Below are positions 6,739 through 29,385 of a stretch of DNA of 64,000 bases, in pieces. The first letter of the stretch is position 1. Each line of letters opens with the position of its first letter. The stretch covers positions 7,026,213 through 7,090,212 of the forward strand of contig NZ_CP031264.1 in the NCBI RefSeq assembly GCF_003258605.2, given 5' to 3'. The notes beneath the pieces were generated by a model, which saw only the letters and a program-made list of their open reading frames with translations, was not told where the DNA came from and did not search any database. The stretch is from Peterkaempfera bronchialis. GTDB lineage: Bacteria; Actinomycetota; Actinomycetes; Streptomycetales; Streptomycetaceae. A program made the translations under genes and the position numbers.

Positions 6739-7656
6739 TCAGAGCCCCAGCTGTCGTAGCAACCCCAGCCCCGCCGAGTCGAGTTGGTAGAGGACGCGCC
6801 CGCCCAGGCGCTGTTTCCAGACGATGCCCGCCTCGCTGAGGACCGACAGATGCTGGGAGACGGTACTTTTGGCGACGCCCAGGGAGGCTGCCAGGGCCGT
6901 CGTGGTCTGCGGAACCACCAGGGCACGTACGACCTGTGCCCGGCCCTTGCCGAGGAGGAGGGCCAGCCGGTCGTCCGCCACCGTGTCCCGGCCCGGAGCG
7001 GTCAGCACATGGAAGTACCCCGTGGCCCGGGCCTGGTAGGACATGGCCACGACGCCGTCTTCCTCCATGAACAGCCGCAGGCCGCCGGCGAAGACCGTGG
7101 GTACCAGGAGGAGCTTCGAGTGGCTCAGGGTGACATCCAGGTCACGGTGGTACGGCGCGGTCAGGAGCGGCGGAGTCCAGGTGATGCGGCCGCCCAGCTC
7201 GGCCAGCATCGCTTCCACGCCGCCCACCGCCAGTGTGCGGCCGCGGAAGAGGATCTCCTCCTCCAGCGAGGAGCGGATCGAGGTCCAGTGCGGGGCGATG
7301 GCCCACTCCCAGTACCGCTCCAGGAGTCCGATGAACCGTTCCGCCTGGACTGACCCGCGATGCCGCTGCCGAACCTGCCGCAGTTCGGCTTCGATGGTGT
7401 TGTGGGCAGCGTCGGGGAGCGGTACGAAGTCCGGGGGGAACAGGGGACGCTCGGGCTGCCGTAACCGCTCCACCAGATCCCTGGCGAACTCGGTCGGCAT
7501 GCCACGGCGCACTCCTCGTGCCCAGTTCGTGTACGGCGAGGGGGCCACACCCCGGTAGCGGGCCAGGATGCCGATGCTGCCGATCATTTCCCACAGCGGG
7601 CTGAAGGCGAGCCGTGTGGTCTGCAGGCTGTCGTCATCGACGTGGAGACGGATCAC
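6739..7656 (-). CDS. ArsR-type winged-helix regulator of the RiPP cluster
   Basis: A 305-residue protein. The C-terminal ~70 residues form an ArsR-type winged helix (TTTALAASLGVAKSTVSQHLSVLSEAG plus a wing). The long N-terminal region (~230 residues) resembles the DUF5937-type N-terminal domain common in actinobacterial ArsR-family proteins. It starts with GTG and lies just downstream of, and co-directional with, a nucleotidyltransferase gene, so the pair is probably one transcript diverging from the precursor-peptide operon. That placement makes it the best candidate pathway regulator, possibly acting at the palindrome at 8551-8568. Fold confident; regulatory role inferred from position. Confidence 0.75.
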   Translation of the reverse strand: MIRLHVDDDSLQTTRLAFSPLWEMIGSIGILARYRGVAPSPYTNWARGVRRGMPTEFARDLVERLRQPERPLFPPDFVPLPDAAHNTIEAELRQVRQRHRGSVQAERFIGLLERYWEWAIAPHWTSIRSSLEEEILFRGRTLAVGGVEAMLAELGGRITWTPPLLTAPYHRDLDVTLSHSKLLLVPTVFAGGLRLFMEEDGVVAMSYQARATGYFHVLTAPGRDTVADDRLALLLGKGRAQVVRALVVPQTTTALAASLGVAKSTVSQHLSVLSEAGIVWKQRLGGRVLYQLDSAGLGLLRQLGL

Positions 7657-7690
7657 GAGGGCACCCCCCGTGCCTGGGTCGCGCCGGTGG

Positions 7691-8482
7691 TCATGAGGTC
7701 TCCACTCGCATGGCCAGGTCCTGGCAGAGCGTGAGCACGCCCTCGATCCAGGGGGCCGGGTCTGCGGGGTCGTATCCCTCCATGGTTTCCACTCGCCAGT
7801 AGTCGGCGAAGCTGATGGCCTGCGGAGCCACTGCCTTGAAGCGGTTGGGCCGCCACTTCGGCAGATGGCTGCCGTACTCTCCGTGGCTCTCCAACAGGGC
7901 GTTGATGACATGTCCGAAGGCCAGGCGCGCCGAGATCGTCGCGCTTTCCAGGTCTCCGGCCTCCAGCTGGCCGAGTGCGTCCTCGACGGCGTCGTCAGCG
8001 GCGCCGAGCGAGCGGACCACGGCGAAGGAGTGGAATGCCGATTCCGCGAGCCGGGACCGGCACCGCGCCAGCCAGGCTTCGCCCAGCAGCGGCAGGCAGC
8101 TGCCCAGCCGCCCCAACAGCAGCTCCTCTCGCAGGACCAGGGTGTCCTCGGTGACCCGGCCGGTCTCGAACGCCTCCCAGGAGACCTTGGCGAAGATCTG
8201 GTCGATCTGGCTGTCCAGCCAGTACGTGACATCCCAGCGTCGGCTCTGCGTGTAGAACAACTCGGTGCTCAGTCGCGGCGGTTCGAGCGGGACCGGGACC
8301 GTGCCGCCGGACGAGGAGACGCGCTCCGTACGGGTGACGACGTAGACGTCGAAGTCGCTGCGCGGGTTGTGCCAGCCCCGAGCGGCAGAGCCGACGACAA
8401 ACACCGCGAGCGCCCCGCGGGGGATCAGGCCATGCTGCCGTAGCGGGGACAGCCAGTCCTCGGCCGCCTTGGTGCCATCCAT
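7691..8482 (-). CDS. MNT/KNT-type nucleotidyltransferase
   Basis: A 263-residue protein with a minimal Pol-beta-like nucleotidyltransferase domain. The signature GSAARGWHNPRSDFDVYVV covers residues 31-49, giving metal-binding D43 and D45, with a third carboxylate likely at D84 in RRWDVTYWL. The C-terminal half is helical. Such enzymes transfer an NMP to hydroxyl or phosphate groups, and members modify antibiotics or toxins' targets. The ATG at 8482 has a good ribosome site (AGGGAAGGGG). It diverges from the precursor peptide operon across 160 bp. It may modify the peptide or give self-protection; both are inference. Unlike the other nucleotidyltransferase here it has no RRE-like tail. Confidence 0.78.
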   Translation of the reverse strand: MDGTKAAEDWLSPLRQHGLIPRGALAVFVVGSAARGWHNPRSDFDVYVVTRTERVSSSGGTVPVPLEPPRLSTELFYTQSRRWDVTYWLDSQIDQIFAKVSWEAFETGRVTEDTLVLREELLLGRLGSCLPLLGEAWLARCRSRLAESAFHSFAVVRSLGAADDAVEDALGQLEAGDLESATISARLAFGHVINALLESHGEYGSHLPKWRPNRFKAVAPQAISFADYWRVETMEGYDPADPAPWIEGVLTLCQDLAMRVETS

Positions 8483-8642: not shown

Positions 8643-8768
8643 ATGGAGGACCTGAACGTCATCGAGGTCGACGAGGACATCGTCGAGTTCGACTCCGACG
8701 AGGAGAACGCGGCCGCCGCGGCGAACGTCGTCAACGTCGTCAACGTCGTGAATGTGGTCAACGTCTGA
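8643..8768 (+). CDS. Candidate RiPP precursor peptide with (NVV)4NV core
   Basis: A 41-residue peptide. Residues 1-22 are strongly acidic (11 Asp/Glu) and resemble a leader; an Ala5 spacer (residues 23-27) follows, and the C-terminus is NVVNVVNVVNVVNV, a perfect three-residue periodicity. A ribosome site GGGGAGG precedes the ATG. It is the first gene of an operon containing a nucleotidyltransferase with an RRE-like tail, TldD/TldE proteases and an ABC exporter. This is the classical order of a ribosomally made, modified and exported peptide. I do not know a described family with this core. The modification is unknown: a nucleotidyltransferase acting on Asn side chains or the C-terminus is only a guess. 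Confidence 0.72.
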   Translation: MEDLNVIEVDEDIVEFDSDEENAAAAANVVNVVNVVNVVNV

Positions 8769-8908: not shown

Positions 8909-10012
8909 ATGGCCAGCCCCGCAGTCGAGCAGAAGCTCGCGGCGGCCCGCAAGCTCGGACACACCCTTGCGGCTGACGCTGATACAGACATCGACTCCAT
9001 CTACATCGGCGGCAGCCTCACGGCCGGCCTGGGAAACGCGACCAGCGACGCGGATCTCTTCGCGCTGACCGGCCACCGAGGCCACGCCGGCGACGAGGCC
9101 ACCCAGTTCAGCGTCGACGGCCACCGGATCGACGTCGAACGGTGCTCACTCAGCGAGGTCGAAGCATTCGTCGCCGACCTCACCGGTTTCGAGCTGCGCC
9201 GGGACAACCTGACAGCCCTTCATGGACTACCGAAGGCACTGGACTTCGTCTTCCGACTCAACGCCTCCGAGACCGTGGTCGACTCGGAGCGCCTGACGGC
9301 GCTCCGTGGCCGTATCAGCGACGCTCTCCCGGCGCTCCGGCGCACCATGGTCAACTACTCGGCCGCCGCCATCAACGGACATCTGGAAGACTTCCTCGGC
9401 GCGGCCGCCGAGGGCGATCTGGACACTGCGGCGTTCGCCGGGCAGCACCTGGTCGCGTTCGCGGGCAAGGCTGTGGTGTCAGCAGCCGGAGACCTGTACT
9501 TCAGCAACAAGTGGGTCTACAAGCAGCTGGCGCGCACCCCCGTCGAGGGCTTCCCCGTGGATCTGTTCACCCACTTCCAGCGCGGTGCCTGGACCGACGG
9601 AGGTGCCGAAGCCGCCGAGGAACTGATCCTTTTTGTCCAGACCTGCATAGCGGTCGCGCAGCTCCTTGCGAACACAGGCACTCCGCTCGGAGCCTGGCCG
9701 AGCTGGCGGCCCGGGACGGCGAAGGACGGCCTGTGGCGCAGCACCGGCTTCAACGTGCTGCACACGAGCGAGGGCATCCTGCTCCACTGGGAGCTCGGTC
9801 GGCAGCTGCTGCTCAAGGAAGCTCCGGCCTTCATCTGGGCCTTGTGCGACGGCCGCTCGGTGGAGGACATCGTGGAGGCAGTCCGCGACCTTGGGGCGAG
9901 TGTCCCTTCGCTCAAGGACATGCCCCGAGCCCGCGTCGAGTCGGTCCTGGCAGCCCTACGGAACAAGGGCCTCGTCGGCACCGAGCCCTTCTCCCGGCTG
10001 AGCTCGGTCTGA
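8909..10012 (+). CDS. Nucleotidyltransferase with C-terminal PqqD-like RRE
   Basis: A 367-residue protein. The N-terminal Pol-beta-like nucleotidyltransferase domain has GGSLTAGLGNATSDADLF at residues 34-51 (metal-binding D47 and D49, third likely D75 in HRIDVE). The middle is helical. Residues ~281-360 resemble a PqqD/RRE winged helix: a beta-rich lead-in, then FIWALCDGRSVEDIVEAV (DGRS at 314-317), then RVESVLAALRNKGLV. RREs bind RiPP leader peptides, so this enzyme probably acts on the acidic-leader peptide just upstream. The ATG at 8909 is chosen; in-frame GTG codons upstream (for example 8815) would extend it. Such a fusion is unusual and is the strongest link between this locus and peptide modification. 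Confidence 0.78.
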   Translation: MASPAVEQKLAAARKLGHTLAADADTDIDSIYIGGSLTAGLGNATSDADLFALTGHRGHAGDEATQFSVDGHRIDVERCSLSEVEAFVADLTGFELRRDNLTALHGLPKALDFVFRLNASETVVDSERLTALRGRISDALPALRRTMVNYSAAAINGHLEDFLGAAAEGDLDTAAFAGQHLVAFAGKAVVSAAGDLYFSNKWVYKQLARTPVEGFPVDLFTHFQRGAWTDGGAEAAEELILFVQTCIAVAQLLANTGTPLGAWPSWRPGTAKDGLWRSTGFNVLHTSEGILLHWELGRQLLLKEAPAFIWALCDGRSVEDIVEAVRDLGASVPSLKDMPRARVESVLAALRNKGLVGTEPFSRLSSV

Positions 10013-10053
10013 CGCGGCACGCAACCGACGACAACGGAAATGCGAACGGCATC

Positions 10054-11397
10054 ATGAGCGCTGAGCTGGTGTCCGCGCCAGGCATCGAGCAGCTGAGAGA
10101 CATCGCCGGCTGGGCCGCCCGTGAACTGCGCGGTGCAGCGGACTATCTCCAGGTCTTCGCTGAGTCCACGCTGGCGGTGAGTGTGGAGTGCACATCAGGC
10201 GAGCCGTCGGCCACCTGCGGGGACCTGCGGGAGGGCCTGGGGTGCCTGGCCCTGAAGGATGGTCGCTGGCGCTACAGGGCGGTGACCCCGGACCAGGTTG
10301 ACACCGTCGCCGACTGGCTTGGCGCCCCGCGTCCGGCAGCCACGCCCCCCTGGGTGCCCGGCCCGGGCACGGCGGGCTTCCGGCCGGTGGATCCGCAGGC
10401 ATGGCTGGTGGGGCAGGACGGGGACCCCTACTCCGTCCGCTCCGTGGAGGATGCGACCTGCCGGCGCTACGCCGTGGCTGACAGCGAGGGCGCCGCCTAC
10501 GCGGGTGCGTCGTACACGCTGCGTCGTCGGGTCGAGGCCGGTCTGCTCGCGGCTGGTCGGCGCTATCGCGGGCTCAGCCGCTGGCTGCGCAAGGGGACGG
10601 CTGCGGTCGATGCGGACGCATCGGTCGAGGACCTGGTGAACACGGCCCTGGGCCATGCTCGGGACTCTGCCAAGGCCGCCTTCATTGGCAAGCACCGTAC
10701 TCCGGTGGTCTTCGGGCCCTCTGCGGCGGCCGGATTCCTGCACGAGTTGGTGGGACACGCGCTGGAGGCGGACAACTTCCGGCTCGACAGCGACTACATC
10801 AGGGGGCTGCGCCGGCCGGGGGCCCTGCCGGCGGCACTGTCGCTGCGCGACGACCCGACCGTGGAGCACGGCTACGGCTCGTACCCGGCCGACGACGAAG
10901 GCTTCACCGCGACGGTCACCACCCTGCTCCAGAACGGCGAGATCGGTTCCCCTGTCACCTGTCTGCGCACCGCGCAGCGCGGTGGCCTCCGACGCACCGC
11001 CAACGCCCGCCGTGTCGACTTCCGCAGCCCCGCCATCCCTCGGGCCGCCAACACCGTGGTGGTGCCCGGTGCGGACGACCCTGCACTGCTGCTGCGGGGC
11101 GAGGGCTCCGGCGTGCTGCATGTCGGCGGCCTGGGCGCTGGAATGATCAATCTCGGCACCGGCGAGTTCTCGTTCGCGGCACTCAACTGCCACTACCTGA
11201 CACCGAATGGCGACCGGGTTCCCGCCCGCGATGTGAGCCTGGTCGGCAACGCACTGGACACACTGGCCCGCTTGGAAGGCATCGGGTCGGACTTCGGCGG
11301 CGACAACGCCACCTGCGGCAAGCAGGGGCAGCTGATCGGGATCGGGCTGTACTCCCCTTCGATGCGCTACGCGGCTCTCGACTGGAGCGCCGCGTGA
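10054..11397 (+). CDS. TldD-like metalloprotease
   Basis: A 447-residue TldD-family zinc metalloprotease. The signature HELVGHALEAD begins at H230 (HExxxH, with a following acidic ligand). The conserved late Cys is C421 in ATCGKQGQ, matching the TldD-type zinc site. TldD works with TldE as a heterodimer that digests unfolded peptides and removes leaders, for example in microcin B17 maturation. Here the partner is the next gene. The likely role is leader removal or trimming of the (NVV)4NV precursor. The ATG at 10054 follows the nucleotidyltransferase by 41 bp. Confidence 0.85.
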   Translation: MSAELVSAPGIEQLRDIAGWAARELRGAADYLQVFAESTLAVSVECTSGEPSATCGDLREGLGCLALKDGRWRYRAVTPDQVDTVADWLGAPRPAATPPWVPGPGTAGFRPVDPQAWLVGQDGDPYSVRSVEDATCRRYAVADSEGAAYAGASYTLRRRVEAGLLAAGRRYRGLSRWLRKGTAAVDADASVEDLVNTALGHARDSAKAAFIGKHRTPVVFGPSAAAGFLHELVGHALEADNFRLDSDYIRGLRRPGALPAALSLRDDPTVEHGYGSYPADDEGFTATVTTLLQNGEIGSPVTCLRTAQRGGLRRTANARRVDFRSPAIPRAANTVVVPGADDPALLLRGEGSGVLHVGGLGAGMINLGTGEFSFAALNCHYLTPNGDRVPARDVSLVGNALDTLARLEGIGSDFGGDNATCGKQGQLIGIGLYSPSMRYAALDWSAA

Positions 11398-11440: not shown

Positions 11441-12769
11441 ATGAGGCAACTGGACAGCGGCTGCGACGAGGCACTGGCCGTCGCGGACGCAGTGAACCGC
11501 GAACTGCGAGCGGGTGAGAGGGCGTTCATCCATCTGGGCCGGACCGGGCGGCGGTGCCTGACTGTCGACCCCGCAACCGGCGGCGGGCAGCTGATGGTGC
11601 GACAGGGCCGGTTCGACGGCTATGTGCGCCTCACCCGCGACGGCAGCGAGGTCTACCTCAATGCCCCCGCGCCGGGTTCCGCGACCGTGGGCCGGCTCCT
11701 GGACGTCGGCCGGCTCCTGCTGCCGCTCGGCACCTTCCGCACCCCTCTGGCCGACCAGGTGCCACACGCGGGCGAGTGGCGCAACCGTGATGGCAGGGTG
11801 AGTCTGGAGTCGGTCGCCACCGACCCGGTACCGCTGCTGTCCCGGCTCGCCGAGGCAGCCGGGCCGGACTGCGCCGTGCGGACCCTCGCTGTCTCCGAGG
11901 TACTCGGCGAGCAGGTCTTCGCCGACTCCACGGGCCCGCGTGGTCAGAGCGTCTGCCGAGGGGCCGAGGTGCAGGCCGCCGCATCCGCAGACGGTGGCGC
12001 GACTGTCGCCCGGGTCTCCCACTACGCCGCTGATCTCAAGCGCATCGATCTGGTCACCCTCGGTCGTGAGCTGGCGCTGACCGCCGCCGCGCTCGGCCCG
12101 GCATCGGCTTCCCTCCCCGGGAGCGAGATCGGGTTCCTCCCCTCGGCGGCAGCCCAACTGCTGCGGGTCCTGGTGAGTGCGCTGCTCTTCAACCCGATCG
12201 CCGAGCCCCGGCCGCTGTGCACCGCGGTCGTTGACGACGGGCGCACTGCGGACGGCTGCTCCGCGCGGGCTTTTGACTGCGAGGGAACGCCCACCGGGGC
12301 GATGGAGCTGGTGACCCGGCAGGGTGAGCAGCAGGCCGTTGCCACCCGGCTGAACTCCGTCGTCGGTACCGGAGGCCGGAAGGCGCGCAGTCTCACCGGG
12401 CACGCGTCCTGGGAGGCACGCCGATACCAGCCGCAGCCCACCGCCACAAATGTGCGGCTGGCGCCGGGTGGTGCGGCTCCCGACCTGTGGAGTGGCGAAC
12501 GCTGCCTGGTCACCGATGTGCGCAGCCTGGGTGTGGAGGAGTTCCGCTCGGGTGGACAGCTGGCGCTCCGCCTGCTCGCCGCGCGAGCGGTGGACGGCGT
12601 ACCGACGGGCGCCTATGCGCCGCTCGTGGTGGAGGGAGAGGCCGTCGACTTCCTGGCCGCACTCACCGGGGTCGGTGAGACCGCTTCCTACCACCCCGGT
12701 CCCTTCTCTGTCGGCGGCGCCCCGCTGTCGATGGACCTGTCCCGTCTGTCCGAGAGGAACGAGGTCTGA
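11441..12769 (+). CDS. TldE/PmbA-like protease partner
   Basis: A 442-residue PmbA/TldE-type protein lacking the HExxxH motif, as expected for the non-catalytic partner of TldD. Family traits include FDCEGTPTGAMELV near residue 280 (PmbA: FD.EG.PT) and the late LAARAVDGVPTGAYAPLVVEG block. With the preceding TldD-like subunit it would form the protease chamber that processes the peptide. It lies 43 bp after TldD, and its stop is 2 bp before the exporter ATPase, so it belongs to the same operon. Sequence is divergent from housekeeping PmbA, consistent with a pathway-specific copy. Confidence 0.8.
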   Translation: MRQLDSGCDEALAVADAVNRELRAGERAFIHLGRTGRRCLTVDPATGGGQLMVRQGRFDGYVRLTRDGSEVYLNAPAPGSATVGRLLDVGRLLLPLGTFRTPLADQVPHAGEWRNRDGRVSLESVATDPVPLLSRLAEAAGPDCAVRTLAVSEVLGEQVFADSTGPRGQSVCRGAEVQAAASADGGATVARVSHYAADLKRIDLVTLGRELALTAAALGPASASLPGSEIGFLPSAAAQLLRVLVSALLFNPIAEPRPLCTAVVDDGRTADGCSARAFDCEGTPTGAMELVTRQGEQQAVATRLNSVVGTGGRKARSLTGHASWEARRYQPQPTATNVRLAPGGAAPDLWSGERCLVTDVRSLGVEEFRSGGQLALRLLAARAVDGVPTGAYAPLVVEGEAVDFLAALTGVGETASYHPGPFSVGGAPLSMDLSRLSERNEV

Positions 12770-12771: not shown

Positions 12772-13716
12772 TTGGCTGCTGATCGGGGACTTCATGTCAC
12801 CGGCCTGACCCGCGTGTTCACCACCCGGGACGGAACCGTCCGCAAGGCGGTTGACGACGTCGACCTGACCGTGCGGCCCGGCGAGCTCGTCTCGGTGCTC
12901 GGCCCGAACGGGGCGGGGAAGACAACGACCGTGCGGATGCTGACAGGTCTGCTGCTGCCGACCTCGGGCACCGTCCTGCTCGATGGCCACGACGTGGTGA
13001 AGGACCGCAAGAAGGCCTCCCTGGCCTGCGGGTTCAGCCTCGGGGGTGACACCGGCCTGTACCCACGGCTCACCGCTCGGCAGAACCTCACCTTCTTCGG
13101 CCTGATGTACGGCCTGCGCGGCGGCGCTCTGGAAGGCAAGGCCGACCAGCTGCTCCGGACAGTGAACCTGGCCGACCGGGCCGGGGATCCCGTCGGGTCG
13201 TTCTCGCGCGGCATGAAGCAGCGACTTCACCTGGCCCGCGCGCTGCTGCACGATCCGGCCGTGCTGATCCTGGACGAGCCCTCGGCCGGATTGGATCCGC
13301 AGTCCGCTGCCGCGATGCGCGCCCTGGTCGCCGAGTTGTCCGCGGAGGGCCGCAGCATCCTGCTGACCACTCACGACATGCGTGAGGCCGAGGAGCTCAG
13401 CGACCGGATCGTGCTGATGAGGGACGGCCGGATCCATGCCGAGTCCACCGCCTCCGCGTTGCGCCTGGCCGCGGCGGAACGGCTCGGTCACACCGTGCGG
13501 ATCGACTTCGCCGAAGCTGAGGTCCCTGACGGGGTTGGTGACTGCCCGGGTCTGCTGGACGAGCAGCGGACCGGCTCGACGGCGATCCTGCGGGCCACCG
13601 ACGGGCCGGCGGCTGTGCAGTGGCTCCTGGCGCGTTTTCCGGGCCGGACGCTGAGTGTGGCGGTCACCCCGCCCACCCTTGAGGAGGTCTTCCTGGAGAT
13701 GGTGGCCGTCTCGTGA
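12772..13716 (+). CDS. ABC transporter ATP-binding protein
   Basis: A 314-residue DrrA-like ATPase. It has Walker A GPNGAGKTT at residue 44, the signature SFSRGMKQRL, Walker B VLILDEPSAGLD and the H-loop TTHD. A ~90-residue C-terminal extension is typical of ATPases serving ABC-2 exporters. Translation probably starts at TTG 12772, with GAGAGGAACGAGG upstream. It overlaps the first permease by GTGA. Two permeases follow, so this should be the motor of a peptide exporter that also confers self-immunity. Confidence 0.9.
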   Translation: MAADRGLHVTGLTRVFTTRDGTVRKAVDDVDLTVRPGELVSVLGPNGAGKTTTVRMLTGLLLPTSGTVLLDGHDVVKDRKKASLACGFSLGGDTGLYPRLTARQNLTFFGLMYGLRGGALEGKADQLLRTVNLADRAGDPVGSFSRGMKQRLHLARALLHDPAVLILDEPSAGLDPQSAAAMRALVAELSAEGRSILLTTHDMREAEELSDRIVLMRDGRIHAESTASALRLAAAERLGHTVRIDFAEAEVPDGVGDCPGLLDEQRTGSTAILRATDGPAAVQWLLARFPGRTLSVAVTPPTLEEVFLEMVAVS

Positions 13717-14462
13717 ACAACACGTACCTCAGGTCGGTGCTCGACCAGTTCAGGATGCACGCGACGAGCCCGATGGCAGTCTTCGGCACACTCGCGATGC
13801 CGTGCGTCTTCGCCTTTGTCATCCACAGCAACCGGGCGCATGGCACGGGCGCGGCCGGCACCACGAGCGACATGGCCGTGGGTTCCGCCGGCATCGGTGT
13901 CCTGGACTCCGCCATCGTGCTCGTCGTGCTCAGTCTGCTCGGCGAGAAGCAGTGGAAGACGCTGTACGCAGCGCTCGGCAGTCCGGGCGGCATGGTGCCC
14001 CTCGTACTCGGCCGACTGAGCGGGATCGCGGTGCAGACCCTGATCGCGGTCCCTGGAACGTTCGCGGTTCTGGCGCTGTTGTGGGGTGTCGACGACAGCT
14101 TCGCCTGGAGCCGCTGGCTGGTCGGCGGAGTACTGCTGACACTGGCCACCATGTCCGTGGTCGGTCTGCTCGCGGCAGCCGTGCTCCGCTTTCCCTACTC
14201 CTCCGGCATGGTCAACGGCCTGACCGGTCTGGTCATGGCGCTGTCCGCGCTGGTCGTGCCGCAGTCGGCCCTGCCCGGACCGGTGCGGGCACTGGCCCAG
14301 CTGATGCCACAGGCACACGTCATGGCCTGGGTGCGCGGCGGCTCGGCGGGCAGTCTCGCTCTCGCACTGGCTCTCACCGCCGGCTACGCGGTGCTCGTCG
14401 TACTGCTGATCCGGCGCGTGGAGTACTCCGCCCGCCGTGACGCCGTCCCCATGGAGATGTGA
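13713..14462 (+). CDS. ABC-2 transporter permease 1
   Basis: A 249-residue integral membrane protein with about six hydrophobic segments (approximately residues 20-38, 62-78, 95-125, 138-160, 170-190 and 215-235). It starts with GTG inside the stop of the ATPase gene, showing translational coupling. It resembles the DrrB-type exporter permease family but shares little specific motif. With the next gene it forms the membrane part of the exporter. Confidence 0.85.
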   Translation: MNNTYLRSVLDQFRMHATSPMAVFGTLAMPCVFAFVIHSNRAHGTGAAGTTSDMAVGSAGIGVLDSAIVLVVLSLLGEKQWKTLYAALGSPGGMVPLVLGRLSGIAVQTLIAVPGTFAVLALLWGVDDSFAWSRWLVGGVLLTLATMSVVGLLAAAVLRFPYSSGMVNGLTGLVMALSALVVPQSALPGPVRALAQLMPQAHVMAWVRGGSAGSLALALALTAGYAVLVVLLIRRVEYSARRDAVPMEM

Positions 14463-14465: not shown

Positions 14466-15227
14466 GTGACCACCTACATCAAGGGCGCGTTGCTGTCGTA
14501 CAAGGCCCTGTTCACCTGGCTCAACCCGCTGGGCTATGTCAGCTCCCGGATCGTCCGCCCGATCGGTCTGGCGATTGCCTGCGTCTCGCTGGCCGACTAC
14601 TACGGTGCCGCCATCGGCCGCATGCTGATCGGCGCGAGTCTGCTCGCGGGCGCGAGTGCGGTGATCTACGGCATGGCCCTCGCGGTCGGCAATGAGCGGT
14701 CGTACGGCACGCTCGGCACCTGGCTCGCCTCGCCGCAGAACAAGCTCGGCGCGGCCTGCCAGCGGGCACTGCCACACATCGCGGACGGTGTCGTGGGCGG
14801 ACTCTGCACCTATCTGGTGTGCTGTGCGCTCTACGGATCGCTGCCGATCGGCGTGCCCGCGTACACCGGCCTGCTGAGTCTGGCTGTCGTGACCACTGCC
14901 GGCCTGGGCCTTGCCCTGTCGGCGCTGGCGCTGCTGATCGAGGACCTGTTCATCGGACCGAACGTGGCCGACCTCGTGTTGATGATGCTCACCGGCACAT
15001 TGATCCCGCATGACCGGCTTCCGGCCTTCCTGCAACCGCTGTCGGAAGTCCTTCCCGTCACCCATGTCATGGCTGCGGTGGCAGGTCGGCTCGCGGGCGG
15101 GAGCTGGAACGGTGGCGAGTTCCTGGTGGAACTGGGGGTGGGGGCCGGCTGGTTCGCGGTCAGTTCGCTTTTCATGATGTGGGCGGTCCAGCGGGCCACC
15201 CACCGCCTGGGCCGGTCCTCGGGCTGA
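14466..15227 (+). CDS. ABC-2 transporter permease 2
   Basis: A 253-residue membrane protein with about six transmembrane stretches and a GTG start 3 bp after the first permease. The hydrophobic pattern and the segment GNERSYGTLGTWLASPQNK between helices 2 and 3 match the ABC-2 permease fold, where this loop contacts the ATPase. It ends the first operon of the cluster; a 197-bp gap with no visible hairpin separates it from the enolase. Confidence 0.85.
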   Translation: MTTYIKGALLSYKALFTWLNPLGYVSSRIVRPIGLAIACVSLADYYGAAIGRMLIGASLLAGASAVIYGMALAVGNERSYGTLGTWLASPQNKLGAACQRALPHIADGVVGGLCTYLVCCALYGSLPIGVPAYTGLLSLAVVTTAGLGLALSALALLIEDLFIGPNVADLVLMMLTGTLIPHDRLPAFLQPLSEVLPVTHVMAAVAGRLAGGSWNGGEFLVELGVGAGWFAVSSLFMMWAVQRATHRLGRSSG

Positions 15228-15274: not shown

Positions 15275-16708
<1,434 letters not shown>

Positions 16709-16900: not shown

Positions 16901-17110
16901 ATGATCGCCGTTTCCCCCGCGGTGCAGAGCACCAACTTCAACCTCAAGAACGAGGCTGTCGAGCTGATCGCCGCCGGCGGTGTCGCCGAGCGCGTGTCGC
17001 TCTCCGTCGCCGACCTGGAGGCCATGCGCACCCTGCGTGCGGCCGTCCCGGCGTCGAAGCACGGCCTTGAGGCCATCACTGGCGGCTCTTGCGAGACCGG
17101 CGCCCAGTAG
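16901..17110 (+). CDS. Second candidate precursor peptide, 69 aa
   Basis: A 69-residue protein with a well-placed ribosome site (CTGGAGGATGGC) before the ATG, isolated between the enolase terminator and the PP-loop gene. The N-terminal two thirds look like a helical leader (NEAVELIAAGG, SLSVADLEAMRTLR). The C-terminus SKHGLEAITGGSCETGAQ has a Gly-Gly followed by a Ser/Cys-containing tail, a plausible core. It heads a ten-gene operon of possible tailoring enzymes. Size, position and composition suit a RiPP precursor, but no known family was recognised. Alternatively it is a small structural or carrier protein. Confidence 0.6.
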   Translation: MIAVSPAVQSTNFNLKNEAVELIAAGGVAERVSLSVADLEAMRTLRAAVPASKHGLEAITGGSCETGAQ

Positions 17111-21763: not shown

Positions 21764-23746
21764 ATGCCCGACTGGCAGTTGATCACCCGAACCGAGGCCA
21801 AGGCGCAGCTCTACATGCGCGAGACCTACTTCCGCGAGGGTCTCGCGGACGCCCAGGACACCTTCGGGGACGCGCTTGAGGACGGCCTCTGGCACTCCTC
21901 GATGATCATGGTGAAGGCGGACGGCCTTGCAGCCGGCACGCTCGCCCCGGTCGTCGAGTTCCTGCGTGAACACGACTTCGCGGTCGTCGGCGTGGAGGAA
22001 GTCCGGTTCACCCGCACACTCTGGCGTGAGCTGTGGCGCTTCCAGCTCACCTCGGCCACCCTCGACCGCCTCGCCGTCAACGATGCCGTGCACCCGGGCC
22101 GGTCGGCGCTGCTCCTGCTGCTGCGCAGCGGCGCGGGCCACGACCTGCCCGGGACGGTCCGGCTCAGTGGTCTCAAGGGATCCGCCGGCGGCCCCGCCAA
22201 GGGCAGCCTGCGGGACCGCCTGGGCCAGCCCAACCGGGTCTTCAGCTATGTCCATGTGCCGGACGAACCCGCCGACCTGCTACGCGAGTTGGGCCTGCTG
22301 CTCGACTCCAGGGCCCGCCGCCGCGCCCTGGCCGCGCTTGCCTCCGGTCGGATCGGAGACGAGGGCACCGCCCGATTGGAAGCAGCCCTGACGGCGCACA
22401 CAGGCCGCTCCCTGGCCGCAGAGCCGGCCGCCCGGCGGATCGAGGCTGCGATCCAGGACTCCCTGGACCAGGGCACCGTGGCAGCGGAGCAGGCCGCCCA
22501 GCTGCTGGACCATCTGAAGGCCCTGGACAGCGGCAGCCCGGTGCCGTGGCGGTCCTTCTACCAGCTCGCAGCCGACAGCGGCCTGGCGGCCGACCCCTGG
22601 GACCTCGCGATCCTCGGCGCCACCCATGTCGTCTGCGACGAGACGGGCTTCGCCAAGGTCCTGACCAACCCCGACCCCGAGGACTGGCGCACTGCGCCTG
22701 CCACGGTTGCCGAATCAGCCCCGGCCGGCGAGGAGCCGGACTGCCGAAGGAAGACCCCCATGTTCATGCATCGCATCACGACCGCGGACCAGATGCCCGA
22801 TGAGCGGGCCTGGCACGCGCTCACCCGCTCCCCGCGCAAGCGCGAGCTGTTCGCCGACGACCTCTACTTCCGCGAGGCATGGGCCGATGCCGACGCTGTC
22901 CTCGGGGACGGCGCACTCGACCTGCTGAGCCAGGTGGCGCTGTTCAACTTCAAGCCCGACGGCCTGGTGGGCCGCCGTGCGAGCCGGACCCTCGACTTCT
23001 TCGAGGAACACGGCTTCACCGTGGTGGGAACGGCGCCGATGCGTCTCAACCGTCACTCCATGCGCGAGGTGTGGCGCTATGACTGGAACGTCTACACCCC
23101 CGATCGACTCGCCCTGTGCTCCCTGATGCACAGCGCCACGGAGACGGTCCTGCTCATCCTCCGTGACCACCGCTACGACGGGGTGATTCCCGCTGCCGTG
23201 CGCCTGTCCGACCTCAAGGGCTCGGCGGACCCCAAGGCCCGCGGCCCTGAGGCACTGCGCTCCGTGCTCGCCCCGCCGAACCGGGTCATCAACTTCAACC
23301 ATGTGGCCGACGAGCCCGCCGACCTGGTCCGGGAGATCGGCATCTTCCTCGATCGCGCCGAACGCCGCACGCTCTTCGAGGAGGTGCGCCGCGACTTCTC
23401 CTCGGACCTGTCCGAGCGAGCCCGGTCCGAGGTCGAGCGGCTCGAGAACCTCATCCCCGCCAACGACTTCGACCTGGACCAGGCCCTGGACCGCTTGGAA
23501 GCCTCAGGCCGGATCCCGGCCGACGACATGGAGCGGCTGCGCAAGGAGTCGGGGGGCGGCAAGGGCATGGCCTTCGACGAACTGACGGCGATCGTCGATC
23601 CGCACGACCCGGCGATCGACCGTTGGGACTTCGTCCGCGTCGCCACCGAAGTGCTGCCCGTGGAGCGAAAAGGCTTCGGCGGCTCGCTCCCGGCACCCGT
23701 CTCGGCGGACTGGGTCCGCACAGCCGCGGAGAGCCCGGCCCCGTGA
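21764..23746 (+). CDS. Tandem nucleoside-diphosphate-kinase-like protein
   Basis: About 660 residues made of two similar halves. Each half has an NDK-like domain: MVKADGL (K51) with NRVFSYVHVPDEPADLLREL (H164), and FKPDGL (K397) with NRVINFNHVADEPADLVREI (H513). The His positions align with the phosphohistidine of NDK and the Lys with its nucleotide-phosphate Lys, at almost the same spacing (113 and 116 residues). Each domain is followed by a helical segment ending in a W-D block. A duplicated NDK of this size is not a standard kinase. It starts at ATG 21764; ATG 21683 overlapping the ClpX stop (ATGA) is an alternative. Its role may be phosphotransfer to a pathway intermediate. Confidence 0.72.
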   Translation: MPDWQLITRTEAKAQLYMRETYFREGLADAQDTFGDALEDGLWHSSMIMVKADGLAAGTLAPVVEFLREHDFAVVGVEEVRFTRTLWRELWRFQLTSATLDRLAVNDAVHPGRSALLLLLRSGAGHDLPGTVRLSGLKGSAGGPAKGSLRDRLGQPNRVFSYVHVPDEPADLLRELGLLLDSRARRRALAALASGRIGDEGTARLEAALTAHTGRSLAAEPAARRIEAAIQDSLDQGTVAAEQAAQLLDHLKALDSGSPVPWRSFYQLAADSGLAADPWDLAILGATHVVCDETGFAKVLTNPDPEDWRTAPATVAESAPAGEEPDCRRKTPMFMHRITTADQMPDERAWHALTRSPRKRELFADDLYFREAWADADAVLGDGALDLLSQVALFNFKPDGLVGRRASRTLDFFEEHGFTVVGTAPMRLNRHSMREVWRYDWNVYTPDRLALCSLMHSATETVLLILRDHRYDGVIPAAVRLSDLKGSADPKARGPEALRSVLAPPNRVINFNHVADEPADLVREIGIFLDRAERRTLFEEVRRDFSSDLSERARSEVERLENLIPANDFDLDQALDRLEASGRIPADDMERLRKESGGGKGMAFDELTAIVDPHDPAIDRWDFVRVATEVLPVERKGFGGSLPAPVSADWVRTAAESPAP

Positions 23747-23958
23747 GCGAGACAGCAGAGACCGGGTCCGCGGAGCACGAGTTCGACCTGTTGATGTCCC
23801 TCCACGGGCATGACGTGCCGGAAGGTCTGCGCCCGGGGGTCCTCGCGGTCCACCTGGAGCTCAGACGGATGACCGCGCTGTTGCGCACTGCGAACCTGCC
23901 GCCCGAGGCAGAGCCCGCGCATGTGTTCTCCGTTGAGACCTATGCGCGGCAAGCCTGA
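23743..23958 (+). CDS. AtzG-like small amidase partner
   Basis: A 71-residue protein whose GTG start overlaps the stop of the NDK-like gene (GTGA). The pattern LRPGVLAVHLELRRMTALLRT followed by NLPPEAEPAHVF matches the AtzG-like family, short helical proteins that pair with AtzE-type amidases as GatC does with GatA. The amidase gene follows immediately, which supports the pairing. Confidence 0.7.
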   Translation: MSETAETGSAEHEFDLLMSLHGHDVPEGLRPGVLAVHLELRRMTALLRTANLPPEAEPAHVFSVETYARQA

Positions 23959-23962
23959 ACGG

Positions 23963-25402
23963 ATGGACACACCCATGGGTGACAAGCCCCTGCACGAACT
24001 GTCGGTCGCCGAAGTCGGCGCCGCGCTGCGCGACGGTTCGCTCACCTCGGTGCGGTTGACCGCGCACACCCTGGAGCGGATCGCGGCGATCGACCCGCTG
24101 ATCGACTCACTGGTGGCGGTCACGGCGGAGCGGGCACTCTCCGACGCGGAGCGCGCCGACGACGAACTGGGCCGCGGCGCCGACCGCGGGCCACTGCACG
24201 GCATCCCGTACACGCTCAAGGACATCATCGATTCGGCCGGCATCCCGACCACCTCCAATTCCCGCTTGATGCTCGGCCACGTCCCACAGCAGGACGCCCA
24301 TGTCGAGGAGCGCCTGCGCGCCGGCGGCGCCGTCCTGGTGGGTAAGGCCAACCTCGCCGAATTCGCCTTCGGCGGCCCCGGGTTCGACCTGCCGACCCCG
24401 CCTTCCCGCAACCCCTGGAACCCGGAGCACTTCACCGGCGGATCATCGGCCGGCAGCGGCGCCGGTGTGGCGGCCGGCCTGGTGCGGGTCTCCATCGGCT
24501 CCGACACCGGCGGTTCGATCCGCTCACCCGCCGCCAACTGCGGCGCCGTCGGTCTGAAACCGACGTACGGCCTGGTGTCGCGGCGCGGCGTCTACCCACT
24601 CTCGTACACGCTCGACCACGTCGGTCCGCTCACCGGGAACGTACGGGACGCGGCGCTTGCCCTGCAGGTCATCTCCGGTCACGATCCGCTCGACCCCAGC
24701 AGCGTCGAGCGGCCCCGGGAGGACTACACCGCTGACCTCGACAAGGGCGTGGAGGGGCTGCGCATCGGCTATGCCCGCGAGTTCTTCACCGCGAGCAAGG
24801 GCGTATCCGACGAGGTGGTCGCGACCATCGATGCGGCGGCTGCCCTGCTCTCCTCCCTCGGCGCGGTGGTGGAGGAGGTGCGCATGCCGGACTTCGAGCT
24901 GATGAAGGCCTGCGGCCGAGTGATCCTGCAGGCCGAGGGCTACGCCATCCACGAGCACAGCCTGCGCGAACGGCCACAGGACTACGGCCGCTACACCTAC
25001 CAGCGACTGACCGGCGGTGCCGCCCTGACAGCGGCCGACTACATCCAGGCCACCCGGGTCCGGCACGAGCTGACCCGACAGCTCAACACCGGCCTGTTCG
25101 GTCGCTACGACGCGCTGATCACGACCGTCGCGCTCGCGCCCCCTGCGCCGTTCACGGACTTCCCGCACCACTGGCCGCCACCCGGTCCGGCGGTGGCCGT
25201 CCAGACCGCGCCGTTCAATGTCACCGGCCACCCGGCGCTGGTGGTGCCCGCCGGCTTCTCGGCCGACGGCCTGCCCTTCGGACTGCAGATCATCGGCCGG
25301 CACTTCGACGAGCGGAGCGTGCTGCGGATCGGCCAGACCTTCGAGTCCGCGGCAGGCGCGAGCGAGCGGCGCCCCGCACTCGGAACGCAGGTGGGCACAT
25401 GA
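23963..25402 (+). CDS. Amidase-signature family hydrolase (AtzE/GatA-like)
   Basis: A 479-residue amidase-signature enzyme with the Ser-cisSer-Lys machinery: K86 in GIPYTLKDII, S161/S162 in TGGSSAGSGAG, and nucleophile S185 in GSDTGGSIRSPAANCG. It hydrolyses an amide or transfers ammonia, in the cytosol. With the AtzG-like partner just upstream it resembles the carboxybiuret amidase pair AtzG/AtzE, though the real substrate here is unknown. Start ATG 23963 follows the partner stop by 4 bp; ATG 23975 is possible. Its stop overlaps the next gene start (ATGA), so it is in the same operon. Confidence 0.85.
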   Translation: MDTPMGDKPLHELSVAEVGAALRDGSLTSVRLTAHTLERIAAIDPLIDSLVAVTAERALSDAERADDELGRGADRGPLHGIPYTLKDIIDSAGIPTTSNSRLMLGHVPQQDAHVEERLRAGGAVLVGKANLAEFAFGGPGFDLPTPPSRNPWNPEHFTGGSSAGSGAGVAAGLVRVSIGSDTGGSIRSPAANCGAVGLKPTYGLVSRRGVYPLSYTLDHVGPLTGNVRDAALALQVISGHDPLDPSSVERPREDYTADLDKGVEGLRIGYAREFFTASKGVSDEVVATIDAAAALLSSLGAVVEEVRMPDFELMKACGRVILQAEGYAIHEHSLRERPQDYGRYTYQRLTGGAALTAADYIQATRVRHELTRQLNTGLFGRYDALITTVALAPPAPFTDFPHHWPPPGPAVAVQTAPFNVTGHPALVVPAGFSADGLPFGLQIIGRHFDERSVLRIGQTFESAAGASERRPALGTQVGT

Positions 25403-27585
25403 CGGGGCAGCACCGGGACGCGACCCGGAATGTCGTCATCGTGGGCGGCGGACCGTGGGGCACCTACGCCCTGGAGCGGTTGGCAGCCCTGCTGCCGCAC
25501 ACCGAGCCGGACAGCACCGTGCACATCACCGTGTTCGAGCGCTCGGGACGTTTCGGTGCAGGTGACACCCACAGTGACGACCAGGTAGCCACGAGCTATC
25601 TGAACCGGGTGGCCAGCCAGATAGCATTCGCCGCCGACGAGTCGACCGCAGCCGCCGACCATCTGCTGCCCCGGCGGCTGCGCCCGACCTTCGCTGAGTG
25701 GACCCGGGACGCCTATGCGCGTACCGGGGAAGAGCACTACGACCTCCGGCCCACCGACGTCCCGCGCCGCTATCTGCACGGCCACGCCCTGCGCGACATG
25801 TTCCAGCGCTACACCGCGCTGCTGCGAGCGGTCCCCGGTGTGACCGTCGACCTGATCGCCGCCGAGGCCACCGACATCGAACCCGGCAGCGGCGCGGGGT
25901 TCCTGGTGCACCACACCGGCGACAGCCCACCGGTCAAGGCTGACCACCTCCTCCTGGTCACAGGCCACTCACAGAACCGCCCGGCCCCCGGCTCCACCGA
26001 GGCCCTGCTCGCCAAGGAGGCATCGACCCGCTACATCCCCAACGCCTACCCGCTGGCCGACCTCACGCTCGACGCTGTCCCGCCCGGTTCCACGGTTGGC
26101 GTGACCGGGCTCGGACTCACCGCGATCGACCTGCTGATGCACCTCACCGAGGGCAGGGGCGGCACCTTCAACCCGGTCGGCGCCGGCGGCCTCCTTGGCG
26201 ATCTCAGCTACGCCCCCAGCGGCCGCGAACCCGCTGTGATCGTCCCCGTCAGCCCCAGCGGCATGTTCACCTGGGCCCGCGCCGAGAACGCCAAGGCCGC
26301 TGACGAAACCGGACGCACCCATGCCGGCCTGGAGCACACCGCGCGCTTCCTGACCGGCGAAGCCATCGCCACGCTGCGCCGCACCGTCGGGACTCCGCGG
26401 CTCCTGCGTGACGGCGAAGTGCGCCAACTGGACTTTGAGCGGCACATCTTCCCGCTGGTCGTGCTGGAGATGGCGTACGTCTACTACGCCACCCTGTTCG
26501 GTGCCCAGGCCGGCGTCCGGCTCGCCGAGACCGCGGAGACCGGCTACCGCCGCTTCCTGCACGGCACCGCCGACCCGGCGAGCGTGGCCATCGCCGAACT
26601 GATGAGGCCGATGCAGCGGGAGTTCGACCGGGTGGCGGAGTACGTCCTGTGCACTGCGGCCGGACGCCCCGTGCCGCCCGACTGCGCCGTCTACGCGGCG
26701 ACGGACGCGGTGGAGGCGTTTCACCGCACCGTCTTCGGTGAACCGGGAGAGAACGGTCCCGGCGCGTCGGGGACCATGGGCGCCTCGCCCTGGGGCCACT
26801 CCACCGACCCCCGGGACCACAGATACGTCTGGGAGGAGTTCTTCGATCCACTGGGCCCGGAGGACACCAAGAACGGTGATGTCTGGCAACGCGGCCTCAT
26901 CGACCACATGCGCCGCGACCACCGGGCCGCCGCCCAGGGCAACCTGCGCAACCCCACCAAGGCAGCATGCGACGGCGTATGGCGTGACCTGCGCTCCACC
27001 TTCTCTGCCGCGGTCGACTTCGGCGGCCTGACGGCGGCCTCGCACCGATCCTTCCTGACCCGGCACCTGCGCCACTACACCCGCATGTCCAACGGCACCG
27101 GCCTGGAGGCGATGAAGAAGGTGCTCGCCCTCATCGAGGCGGGCATCGTGGATGTGACGGTGGGCCCCGCGCCTCTGGTCGAGGTGACCCCGGACGGCGC
27201 CTTCCGGCTGCGCGGCACCAAGACCGGCACGGAGCGCACCGTCGCGTACCTGGTCGAGGGCAGAGGTCATGCCTTTGACGCCGACCACGATGTGCGCCCG
27301 CTGTATTCCAATCTCCTGCGGCGCGGCCTGGTGCGGAAATGGCGCAACCCCGGGGACACCGAGGACGAGGACTTCGTGCCGGGCGCCATCGACGTCAACC
27401 GGGACTTCCAGGTCGTCCGGGCGGACGAAACCGTGGACCCGCGCATCACGGTCCTCGGCGCCCCGGTCGAACGACTGTGCTTCTTCCAGCTCAGTGCCGC
27501 ACGGCCGTACTCGGGTAGCTCGGTACTCAACAACATCGCCCGATGGGCACAGCACGTCGTCGGGGGACTTCATGACGACTGTTGA
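25399..27585 (+). CDS. FAD/NAD(P)-binding protein (NAD_binding_9 type)
   Basis: A 728-residue flavoprotein-like enzyme. The N-terminal dinucleotide-binding motif is VVIVGGGPWGTYALERL (residues ~12-28), and a second nucleotide-binding segment GVTGLGLTAIDLLMHLTEG lies near residue 235. A central helical region and a C-terminal part ending in ARPYSGSSVLNNIARWAQ, with a probable FAD contact, complete the COG4529-like FAD-NAD(P)-binding family. Members are linked to oxidation steps in specialised metabolism, some without a known reaction. The ATGA overlap with the amidase shows coupling. Reaction unknown. Confidence 0.8.
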   Translation: MTGQHRDATRNVVIVGGGPWGTYALERLAALLPHTEPDSTVHITVFERSGRFGAGDTHSDDQVATSYLNRVASQIAFAADESTAAADHLLPRRLRPTFAEWTRDAYARTGEEHYDLRPTDVPRRYLHGHALRDMFQRYTALLRAVPGVTVDLIAAEATDIEPGSGAGFLVHHTGDSPPVKADHLLLVTGHSQNRPAPGSTEALLAKEASTRYIPNAYPLADLTLDAVPPGSTVGVTGLGLTAIDLLMHLTEGRGGTFNPVGAGGLLGDLSYAPSGREPAVIVPVSPSGMFTWARAENAKAADETGRTHAGLEHTARFLTGEAIATLRRTVGTPRLLRDGEVRQLDFERHIFPLVVLEMAYVYYATLFGAQAGVRLAETAETGYRRFLHGTADPASVAIAELMRPMQREFDRVAEYVLCTAAGRPVPPDCAVYAATDAVEAFHRTVFGEPGENGPGASGTMGASPWGHSTDPRDHRYVWEEFFDPLGPEDTKNGDVWQRGLIDHMRRDHRAAAQGNLRNPTKAACDGVWRDLRSTFSAAVDFGGLTAASHRSFLTRHLRHYTRMSNGTGLEAMKKVLALIEAGIVDVTVGPAPLVEVTPDGAFRLRGTKTGTERTVAYLVEGRGHAFDADHDVRPLYSNLLRRGLVRKWRNPGDTEDEDFVPGAIDVNRDFQVVRADETVDPRITVLGAPVERLCFFQLSAARPYSGSSVLNNIARWAQHVVGGLHDDC

Positions 27586-27600
27586 AAGGCGAGGGACCCG

Positions 27601-29385
27601 ATGACTGACACCCTCCTGGAGGACTGCCTCCGCCTGGTACCGCAAGACGAGGTGATGCGCCACATCGAACGCATCTGCCGCTACGACCGCTACCAGGGCT
27701 CGACCGGTCTGGAGCAGGCAGCGGAACTCGTTGCCGAATCCGCGGTCACGGCGGGACTGACGGGCGTGGCCATCGACCGCTACCCGGCCGACGGCAAGGC
27801 GCAGTGGTGGACCTGGCGTGCCCCGGTCTCCTGGACTCCGGTCGCGGCGGTGCTCGAGGTGTACGAGGGCGCGGTGCGGGTTGTCCGGATCGATCACGCG
27901 GAGCAGCCCTTCTCGATCGGCACGTACTCTGCGCCTACGCCGCCGGGCGGCTGTGACGCACGGCTGGTGCGGGTCGGGGACACCGCCGTGCGGGGGGCAC
28001 TGGTCGTCGTCGAGCGAGCCGACTTCGGTAACGCTCGTCTGCTCCGGGAACTTCAGACCGCCGGTGCCGTCGGCTTTGTCACCGATGCCCCCTGGAAGGG
28101 GACACCGGAAGAACCCCATGCCGGGCGGATTGAACTTCCGCCGGACAGTCCGCTGTCGGCCTTCAGCGTGCCCCCGCCGCAGTTGGCCCGTATAGCCGCA
28201 GCGGCAGTCCGCAGGGGACACGCGCGACTGACGATCGAGATCGACCGGTCGGCCGAGATGCCTGTGGTCTCCGGAGTGCTTCCGGGCACGGACCCCGAAG
28301 CCGAGGAGATCTGGCTCACGGCCCACTTGTGCCATCCTCGCCCCGGCGCCAACGACAACGCCTCGGGTGTGGCGGCGACGCTGGGTGTGGCGGCAACCCT
28401 GAGCGCTGCCCGCAAGGCGCGCGCCTCCTTCGGCACGCGGGCCTCGATCCGCTTCTTCTGGGCACCGGAGTTTCTGGGCCAGGCCGCAGTACTTCACCAG
28501 TGCCTGGGAGAGTCCGTCCCCAGGCAGCGGCTCCCGCGCGCGGTGATCAACCTGGACATGGTGGGCGAGGACCAGGCCCAATGCGGGTCACCCTTTGTGG
28601 TGGAACGCCCGCCAGACCTGATCCCGTCCCTGCTGGCTCCCCTTGCGGAGCACTACGTCGATCAGGCGTTCCGGAACACCGCCACGCACTCGGGCGCCTG
28701 GCAGCCGTCCCCCTTCCTCGGCTTCTCCGACCATGCCCTGTTCGCCAATCCAGGTATCGCCCGCCCCGGCGTGCAGTTCTGCCACCCCGCCGACCGCTTC
28801 AACCACTCGGCTGGAGACGCCCCCGACAAGGTGTCGCGCATCGAAATGCTCCGCTCGACCGCGGCTGCCGCCGCCCTGGCCCAGACGCTCGCACGGAGTG
28901 GTCCGGACACAGCCGACCTGGGCACCATCGTCGGTCGCTGGTGCGACCGTGAACGCACAAGGGCACGGAAGGTCGCCGCCGGCCGCAGCGCGGAATGGGG
29001 TCGTCGCTACCTGACCCGGGTGGACTCCACATGTGCGGCCATGACCCTCCTCGCCTCCGGACGCCCGGCACATCAGCCTCAGCCGTCCCCGGGGCAGGAG
29101 GGCCCACCTGTCAAGGCGCACTGGGCCGGGCCCCTGAACGTGCGGGCGATGATGACAGACCTCTCACCCCGCACCCGCGACGCGCTGTCCGACCTGGTGA
29201 CGCTGGACAAGCACTGCCTCGCGATGCTCTTCCACTTCGCCATCAGGGCCGACGGTCACCGCACGCGCGCCGAGATCATCGACGACACGTCGTTCGCTCT
29301 GGAGCGCGAGATCGGCTCGGCGGTGTCGAGGCAGCTCTTCGACGCCCTGCTGGAGTCGGGTTGGCTTCGCGAGGGCTCGGACTAG
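27601..29385 (+). CDS. M28/DUF4910-type aminopeptidase with C-terminal winged helix
   Basis: A 594-residue metallopeptidase-like protein. An inserted protease-associated-type domain (AGAVGFVTDAPWKG, residues ~155-175) is followed by a zinc peptidase core: TAHLCHPRPGANDNASG (His/Asp ligands), FFWAPEFLG, INLDMVGED and the late FSDHALF and CHPADRFNHSAGD. This matches DUF4910/M28-type aminopeptidase-like proteins. The last ~70 residues (DKHCLAMLFHFAIRADGHRTRAEIID) look like a winged helix. No signal peptide is seen, so it should act inside the cell, possibly in final trimming of a peptide. It is the last gene of the operon. Confidence 0.78.
   Translation: MTDTLLEDCLRLVPQDEVMRHIERICRYDRYQGSTGLEQAAELVAESAVTAGLTGVAIDRYPADGKAQWWTWRAPVSWTPVAAVLEVYEGAVRVVRIDHAEQPFSIGTYSAPTPPGGCDARLVRVGDTAVRGALVVVERADFGNARLLRELQTAGAVGFVTDAPWKGTPEEPHAGRIELPPDSPLSAFSVPPPQLARIAAAAVRRGHARLTIEIDRSAEMPVVSGVLPGTDPEAEEIWLTAHLCHPRPGANDNASGVAATLGVAATLSAARKARASFGTRASIRFFWAPEFLGQAAVLHQCLGESVPRQRLPRAVINLDMVGEDQAQCGSPFVVERPPDLIPSLLAPLAEHYVDQAFRNTATHSGAWQPSPFLGFSDHALFANPGIARPGVQFCHPADRFNHSAGDAPDKVSRIEMLRSTAAAAALAQTLARSGPDTADLGTIVGRWCDRERTRARKVAAGRSAEWGRRYLTRVDSTCAAMTLLASGRPAHQPQPSPGQEGPPVKAHWAGPLNVRAMMTDLSPRTRDALSDLVTLDKHCLAMLFHFAIRADGHRTRAEIIDDTSFALEREIGSAVSRQLFDALLESGWLREGSD

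Follow-up and report, generated by a model that had tools for sequence, protein, structure and literature searches.

In microcin C, a ribosomally made peptide that carries an N-linked nucleotide, the ThiF-like enzyme MccB acts on a C-terminal Asn. Together with microcin B17, pearlins, nitrilobacillins and daptides, it is among the described systems with which we compare two gene clusters of Peterkaempfera bronchialis, found in a stretch of 64,000 nucleotides (the window; G000:C1:7026213-7090212) at the right-hand end of a 7.09-Mb contig. Our reading, to which we assign a probability of roughly 0.5, is that the window holds two adjacent, separable peptide-modification gene clusters, each with its own precursor: system 1 (precursor precA), in which a nucleotidyltransferase (NTase) would be the adenylating enzyme, and system 2 (precursor precB), in which a PP-loop ATPase would play this part. 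That the window contains two separable systems resembling those of ribosomally synthesized and post-translationally modified peptides (RiPPs) is very probable. Gene content, conserved gene order, the repeat cores, the recognition domain of the NTase, folds (as predicted models), kept catalytic motifs and the separability are what the analysis shows, whereas the chemistry and the products of both systems are inferred.

The likeness to microcin C and Yersinia McC lies in the pairing of a ribosomal peptide with nucleotide chemistry and, for Yersinia McC, also in TldD/E processing (review, PMC10885120). The window differs from microcin C in its NTase, which has the fold of aminoglycoside nucleotidyltransferases (ANT) and bears a RiPP recognition element (RRE), and in a repeat core whose last residue is Val or Ile; a Pfam scan of 20 window proteins found no ThiF match. 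As in microcin B17, TldD/TldE would mature a ribosomal peptide, but here the pair is encoded within the cluster, the core (like all precA cores) lacks Cys, Ser and Thr, and no YcaO match was found among the same 20 proteins. Pearlins are made on a scaffold peptide, which the conserved end of precB would resemble, and their clusters carry TldD/E-like or M50 proteases (PMC10885120). However, the window has a PP-loop ATPase in place of the LanB-like ligase, with no match to a LanB-like peptide aminoacyl-tRNA ligase among the proteins scanned. Nitrilobacillins and ATP-dependent nitrile synthetases share the use of ATP to adenylate a peptide carboxylate or amide (PMC13060819), yet PesC is asparagine-synthetase-like, whereas the PP-loop enzyme of the window is nearest to TtuA/NcsA. 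Finally, daptide clusters sometimes contain nucleotidyltransferases, which PMC10036551 calls secondary enzymes; here, in contrast, the NTase bears an RRE and its gene immediately follows that of a tripeptide-repeat precursor. The RRE-Finder paper contains no word beginning with "nucleotid", and none of the papers listed in the literature searches, which did not extend to subscription papers, describes these precursors or this set of genes. The author of an earlier note on this DNA knew of no described family with this set. The combination of an RRE-nucleotidyltransferase with a tripeptide array fits no class tested, although the RiPP logic itself is known.

Layout and separability of the two systems

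System 1 extends from 8,643 to 15,227 of the window, and system 2 covers 2,244-5,307 plus 15,425-29,385 (Table 1). The region 6739..29385 delimited in the earlier note therefore needs to be widened by the three system-2 genes at 2244-5307. All gene types listed there are present, including the two small peptide genes, and so is the RiPP-type arrangement of a short precursor with conserved leader, distinct core and adjoining enzymes (in seven system-1 loci and in the precB family). In place of the amidase pair named there, the window has a single amidase (PF01425) and, at 23743-23958, an open reading frame (ORF) of 71 residues that is uncharacterised. The tight gene spacing described in the note is also found, with 4-bp overlaps from the ABC ATPase to permease 1, from the amidase to the flavoprotein and between the nucleoside-diphosphate kinase (NDK)-like gene and the 71-aa ORF, and likewise from ClpX to NDK if the NDK start is 21683. 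Neither Rfam (gathering threshold) nor a tRNA scan gave any match in the window.

The earlier note had left it open whether these genes form one pathway or two adjacent ones. In a Streptacidiphilus-like genome of the same family as the window (G604), a single 18-kb stretch (L103) has matches, at 70-93% identity, to 15 of the 25 window proteins used as queries, namely 13 system-2 genes, with NDK present as two genes, and the pair of ArsR and second-nucleotidyltransferase (NT2) genes. None of the seven system-1 proteins matched in this stretch, and a whole-genome search of G604 returned no NTase-RRE, although the same query did match the window and Kitasatospora xanthocidica (G637, also of this family). 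Because G604 has system 2 without system 1, we reject the single pathway; the two are adjacent, sometimes linked pathways. A scheme in which two precursors feed one hybrid product could account for the co-occurrence of the systems in the window, in Streptomyces sp. NPDC035033 (where the NTase and precB are both annotated, under locus tags 23250 and 23315, with 46,734 bp as the length of the longest contig for both) and on a contig of 18,433 bp that probably carries both an NTase and a PP-loop protein, as well as for the NDK-like genes that accompany both systems and for the ArsR/NT2 pair, which L007 has beside system 1 and G604 beside system 2. Nevertheless, we hold it to be very unlikely: apart from G604, the six other system-1 loci (L007-L012, about 21 kb each) contain no system-2 homologue except NDK-like genes (L009-L012), the ArsR/NT2 pair (L007) and a short regulator match (L008); the sole PP-loop match of K. 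xanthocidica is of a different type (36%) and on another contig; a Pantoea plasmid region has system 2 alone; and the plasmid collection yields a single NTase match, at 25%, from S. virginiae.

A tripeptide-repeat precursor and the adjoining RRE nucleotidyltransferase

The order precursor, NTase, TldD, TldE is kept in all seven distinct system-1 loci with context, which come from Streptomyces, Kitasatospora, Catenulispora (L007) and the window; the synteny across genera that the earlier note had named as a sign of a real system thus exists. Three ABC genes then follow in six of the seven, with an MFS-like gene instead in L007. Upstream of the NTase, every precursor combines the leader motif [DE]DIVEF (within ...DEDIVEFD... 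in the window) with a terminal N[VI]x array, the cores being tandem repeats of N-[V/I]-x with 5 to 18 Asn steps: four NVV plus NV in the window, 10 to 17 NVA plus NV in L007, L008, L010 and L011, mixed NVA/NIG/NIA in L009, and eight NIN plus NI in L012. Among 115 loci examined, the array pattern was found in 11, all copies of the same seven. The repeat units of the seven precursors differ by 56 synonymous and 9 non-synonymous changes (all 9 in L009), and since the synonymous share expected by chance is about 26%, the repeat core exceeds chance; the binomial P of 3e-24 is indicative only, as duplicated units are not independent.

Residues 289-356 of the NTase match PqqD/RRE (PF05402) with 29.5 bits against a cut-off of 23.4, and superposition on TigE also supports the C-terminal RRE that the earlier note had recognised. 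The GS...DxD motif is present, its residues being invariant in 27 aligned rows, and the predicted AF2 model (pLDDT 93.3) has the ANT/KNT small-molecule nucleotidyltransferase fold, with small-molecule enzymes such as ANT-4 and LinB as its top matches; a profile of the NTase gave no match to PDB sequences. Given these folds, and the absence of a canonical acceptor side chain for a nucleoside monophosphate from the precA cores, the NTase could be thought to act on a small molecule, as aminoglycoside nucleotidyltransferases do, with the repeat peptide serving a structural or signalling role. We regard this as unlikely in view of the RRE/PqqD domain at its C-terminus, the precursor directly upstream in 7/7 loci, the TldD/TldE genes between NTase and exporter, and a distant NTase homologue that adjoins a RiPP radical SAM gene. 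That precA is the substrate of the NTase is, by our estimate, likely.

We propose that the RRE would bind the DEDIVEF leader of precA and that the NTase, with ATP as the nucleotide donor, would adenylate Asn side chains of the core. Asn is put forward as the acceptor because it is the only polar or functional side chain that the precA cores offer, an assignment for which we see even odds. The AMP might then stay on Asn, giving a peptide-nucleotide as in microcin C, or leave, giving a nitrile or a cyclic amidine; for nitrile synthetases, adenylation of a carboxamide has been proposed (PMC13060819). TldD/TldE, whose identification in the earlier note holds (both match PF19289, and TldD keeps HEXXXH), would subsequently take off the leader and could divide the array, in register, into modified tripeptides, with the ABC transporter exporting the product. 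The array would fit this protease, which is reported to thread unfolded N-termini, because a structural study assumes tripeptide release (PMC5810440; review PMC10885120). Weighing against complete cutting in the window is its core of 14 residues, fewer than the approximately 15 unfolded residues estimated for TldD/TldE, and we consider cutting in the tripeptide register doubtful. If the proposal is true, an RRE-bearing NTase behind a tripeptide precursor would extend RiPP chemistry by one type of modification, the array would be a simple, polymer-like substrate for leader-guided, processive catalysis, and the agreement of the repeat length with the step proposed for TldD/TldE could be tested directly.

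The NTase-RRE combination is rare: a large protein search (7,998 candidates scored) gave 35 proteins at E 1e-3, and two peptide patterns in the genome collection gave six NTase-RRE loci. NTase matches occur in 41 of 394 family genomes, two below 1e-170 (the window and K. xanthocidica), four between 1e-50 and 1e-67, and 35 weaker and mostly partial. Two scans of viral contigs found no relatives. Distant matches of differing context (L003-L006, L036-L038, L070-L078) were used for the wider pattern only. In L070-L072, a distant NTase (32-35%) stands with a conserved 49-aa peptide, a B12 radical SAM protein (TIGR03975 on L070), a phosphoenolpyruvate (PEP)-utilising protein and ABC genes, a candidate for another RiPP type. 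In L036 (12430-15317), a distant NTase is accompanied by TldD/TldE-like, M16-like and NDK-like genes, and what may be the start of a precursor (MFDIIEDGDY) is truncated where the contig stops. On the S. virginiae plasmid (L028, 8633-11044), the 25% NTase homologue adjoins an annotated nucleoside-diphosphate kinase gene, with no repeat precursor upstream, and L078 shows PEP mutase- and phosphonopyruvate decarboxylase-like genes (by eye) near an NTase. Extra genes of the close loci are a NagA-like protein (named by eye, no Pfam match), two NDK-like proteins (BLAST matches to the NDK of the window; one scanned, no Pfam match), a BFD [2Fe-2S] protein and an AXE1 esterase in L009-L011 (Pfam on L009 only), and a CYTH protein in L008.

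The conserved precursor and PP-loop enzyme of system 2

SCETGAQ ends all seven other precB sequences compared, including that of Pantoea. Mean identity in the precB alignment is 89% over the last 21 columns and 55% over the remainder, with 15 of 21 invariant columns in this last part versus 9 of 50 elsewhere. A Pantoea agglomerans plasmid carries seven system-2 homologues at 35-62% identity (precB, PP-loop, flavoprotein, phosphodiesterase, HisC, M28 and amidase). Flavoprotein homologues appear in 105 plasmid records, 18 of the 20 matches listed being 28-33% identical; on the three such plasmids examined, other system-2 genes were found on that of Pantoea only. Since the precB core is conserved from actinobacteria to Pantoea, a conserved product is indicated, and we infer that the output is a small, conserved product and not a variable antibiotic. 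The system-2 proteins scanned with Pfam gave no PqqD match, and RREs recognisable by structure alone were not searched for.

The PP-loop enzyme keeps the ATP-binding motif SGGGDS (SGGxDS class). By profile and predicted model it is nearest to TtuA/NcsA/TilS, and its fold is also matched by NAD synthetase, asparagine synthetase and the nitrile synthetase ArtA. With the tRNA thiolases TtuA and NcsA as nearest folds and profile matches, the enzyme might be a sulfur transferase that forms a thioamide on precB. We downgraded this possibility, now judged improbable, for want of the Fe-S cysteines: where NcsA has its CxxC, the aligned window sequence reads DDFEFLG, and the 25 aligned relatives have no CxxC there either. 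Moreover, TilS, NAD synthetase, asparagine synthetase and ArtA share the fold and are not known to transfer sulfur. Acyl adenylation of precB is, in our assessment, the somewhat likely step: the PP-loop ATPase would adenylate a peptide carbonyl at the SCETGAQ end, PhyH would then oxidise, and the amidase and M28 would release the product.

A looser form of system 2 (phosphodiesterase, PP-loop, HisC, M28) was found in seven loci (L017, L033-L035, L109-L111), all with a short ORF ending FRTTCTDCVPN[YF] or FRTCCADPRASR. A short ORF in the same block was seen by eye in 21 of the 22 distinct PP-loop loci read with context, the exception, L026, being unchecked for one. PP-loop hits on plasmids number four, including Geobacillus. 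In L107 and L108 the short ORF ends TAQV, with no histidyl-tRNA synthetase (HisRS) among the gene calls, and L106 has PEP mutase- and phosphonopyruvate decarboxylase-like genes (by eye) near the PP-loop gene.

For the two systems together, the boldest scheme, though more doubtful still than register cutting by itself, would make system 1 a new RiPP class, in which an RRE-guided NTase adenylates each third residue (Asn) and TldD/TldE, with a step that may be a tripeptide, releases from the array, in register, many nearly identical tripeptides that are nucleotidylated or bear a nitrile or amidine; system 2 would be a separate cross-phylum pathway that turns the SCETGAQ end into one conserved small molecule, with its own enolase, Ppx, ClpX and NDK copies in actinobacteria.

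Housekeeping paralogues and feature coordinates

System 2 raises the question of why a pathway should be accompanied by copies of genes for central metabolism and proteases. The earlier note had called these genes housekeeping paralogues, and the genome indeed has other eno, ppx and clpX genes, at 63, 57 and 56%. Its NDK-like copy is present but turns out to be a tandem of two NDK-like halves, of which Pfam scores the C-terminal one only; two higher-scoring NDKs lie elsewhere in the genome, and the His and Lys are kept in six NDK-like domains (aligned with one of those two). The enolase, ClpX and Ppx copies could confer self-resistance, as versions of the proteins that the system-2 product targets, a tentative explanation that we place below even odds. 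Their divergence from the other copies is consistent with it, as are the retained enolase motifs and the Walker A and pore motifs of ClpX. Further points in its favour come from PP-loop loci whose short ORF ends TAH[LIYF] (L016, L030, L031, L032, L112), where a HisRS paralogue adjoins in 5/5 and each genome has another HisRS elsewhere (31-37% identical), and from a Xenorhabdus plasmid (L025, 11747-15295), where a short ORF, a PP-loop gene (34%), an MFS gene and a ClpX-like AAA protein (by eye) lie amid transposases. Yet three unrelated targets of one product are unlikely, and no enolase, ClpX or Ppx genes are annotated within 15 kb of the Pantoea PP-loop gene. The PEP-binding, thymidylate kinase-like and SurE genes found there (L024) could fill similar biosynthetic slots to the enolase, NDK and Ppx genes at 15425-23746 of the window, so that the same functional slots are possibly filled by unrelated enzymes. 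The housekeeping copies may act in the system-2 pathway or protect against its product.

Table 1 Genes of the two systems and their edges, in window coordinates
Feature	Position	Strand	Basis
Type I phosphodiesterase/alkaline-phosphatase-family protein	2244..3491	-	Pfam; homologues in G604, Pantoea
HisC-like class I/II aminotransferase	3370..4467	+	Pfam; homologues in G604, Pantoea
Putative regulator	4483..5307	-	named by eye; recurs at system-2 edge in G604
ArsR-type helix-turn-helix regulator	6739..7656	-	homologue with system 2 in G604 (L103), with system 1 in Catenulispora (L007)
Second nucleotidyltransferase NT2	7691..8482	-	relatives in L037/L038 adjoin separate PqqD protein
precA, 41-aa precursor	8643..8768	+	leader MEDLNVIEVDEDIVEFDSDEENAAAAA, core NVVNVVNVVNVVNV; GGGGAGG upstream
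NTase with C-terminal PqqD/RRE domain	8909..10012	+	PF05402 above cut-off; predicted fold like kanamycin nucleotidyltransferase
TldD-like metalloprotease subunit	10054..11397	+	PF19289; HEXXXH kept (HELVGH)
TldE-like subunit	11441..12769	+	PF19289; without HEXXXH
ABC exporter ATPase	12772..13716	+	Pfam
ABC-2 permease 1	13713..14462	+	Pfam
ABC-2 permease 2	14466..15227	+	Pfam
Enolase paralogue	15425..16708	+	other copies in own genome 63% and 43%
precB, 69-aa precursor	16901..17110	+	near-invariant C-terminal core VPASKHGLEAITGGSCETGAQ
PP-loop ATPase, TtuA/NcsA/TilS-type fold	17192..18424	+	profile and predicted model; without aligned Fe-S CxxC
PhyH-family oxygenase	18474..19295	+	Pfam; G604 match
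Ppx/GppA paralogue	19331..20323	+	57% to another copy in genome
ClpX paralogue	20379..21686	+	another copy at 56%; retains Walker A and the GYVG pore motif
Tandem NDK-like protein	21764..23746	+	reading frame open from 21683; His and Lys as in another NDK of the genome, by alignment
71-aa ORF between NDK and amidase	23743..23958	+	no Pfam or NCBIfam match
Amidase	23963..25402	+	PF01425; homologues in G604, Pantoea
FAD/NAD(P)-binding flavoprotein	25399..27585	+	Pfam; homologues in G604, Pantoea
M28 metallopeptidase	27601..29385	+	Pfam; homologues in G604, Pantoea

ORFs of 71 and 74 aa directly precede the amidase in G604 and Pantoea. Stand-alone PqqD/RRE proteins (L037, 9156-9458; L038, 9147-9464) adjoin NT2-like nucleotidyltransferases that are 40-42% identical to the NT2 of the window.

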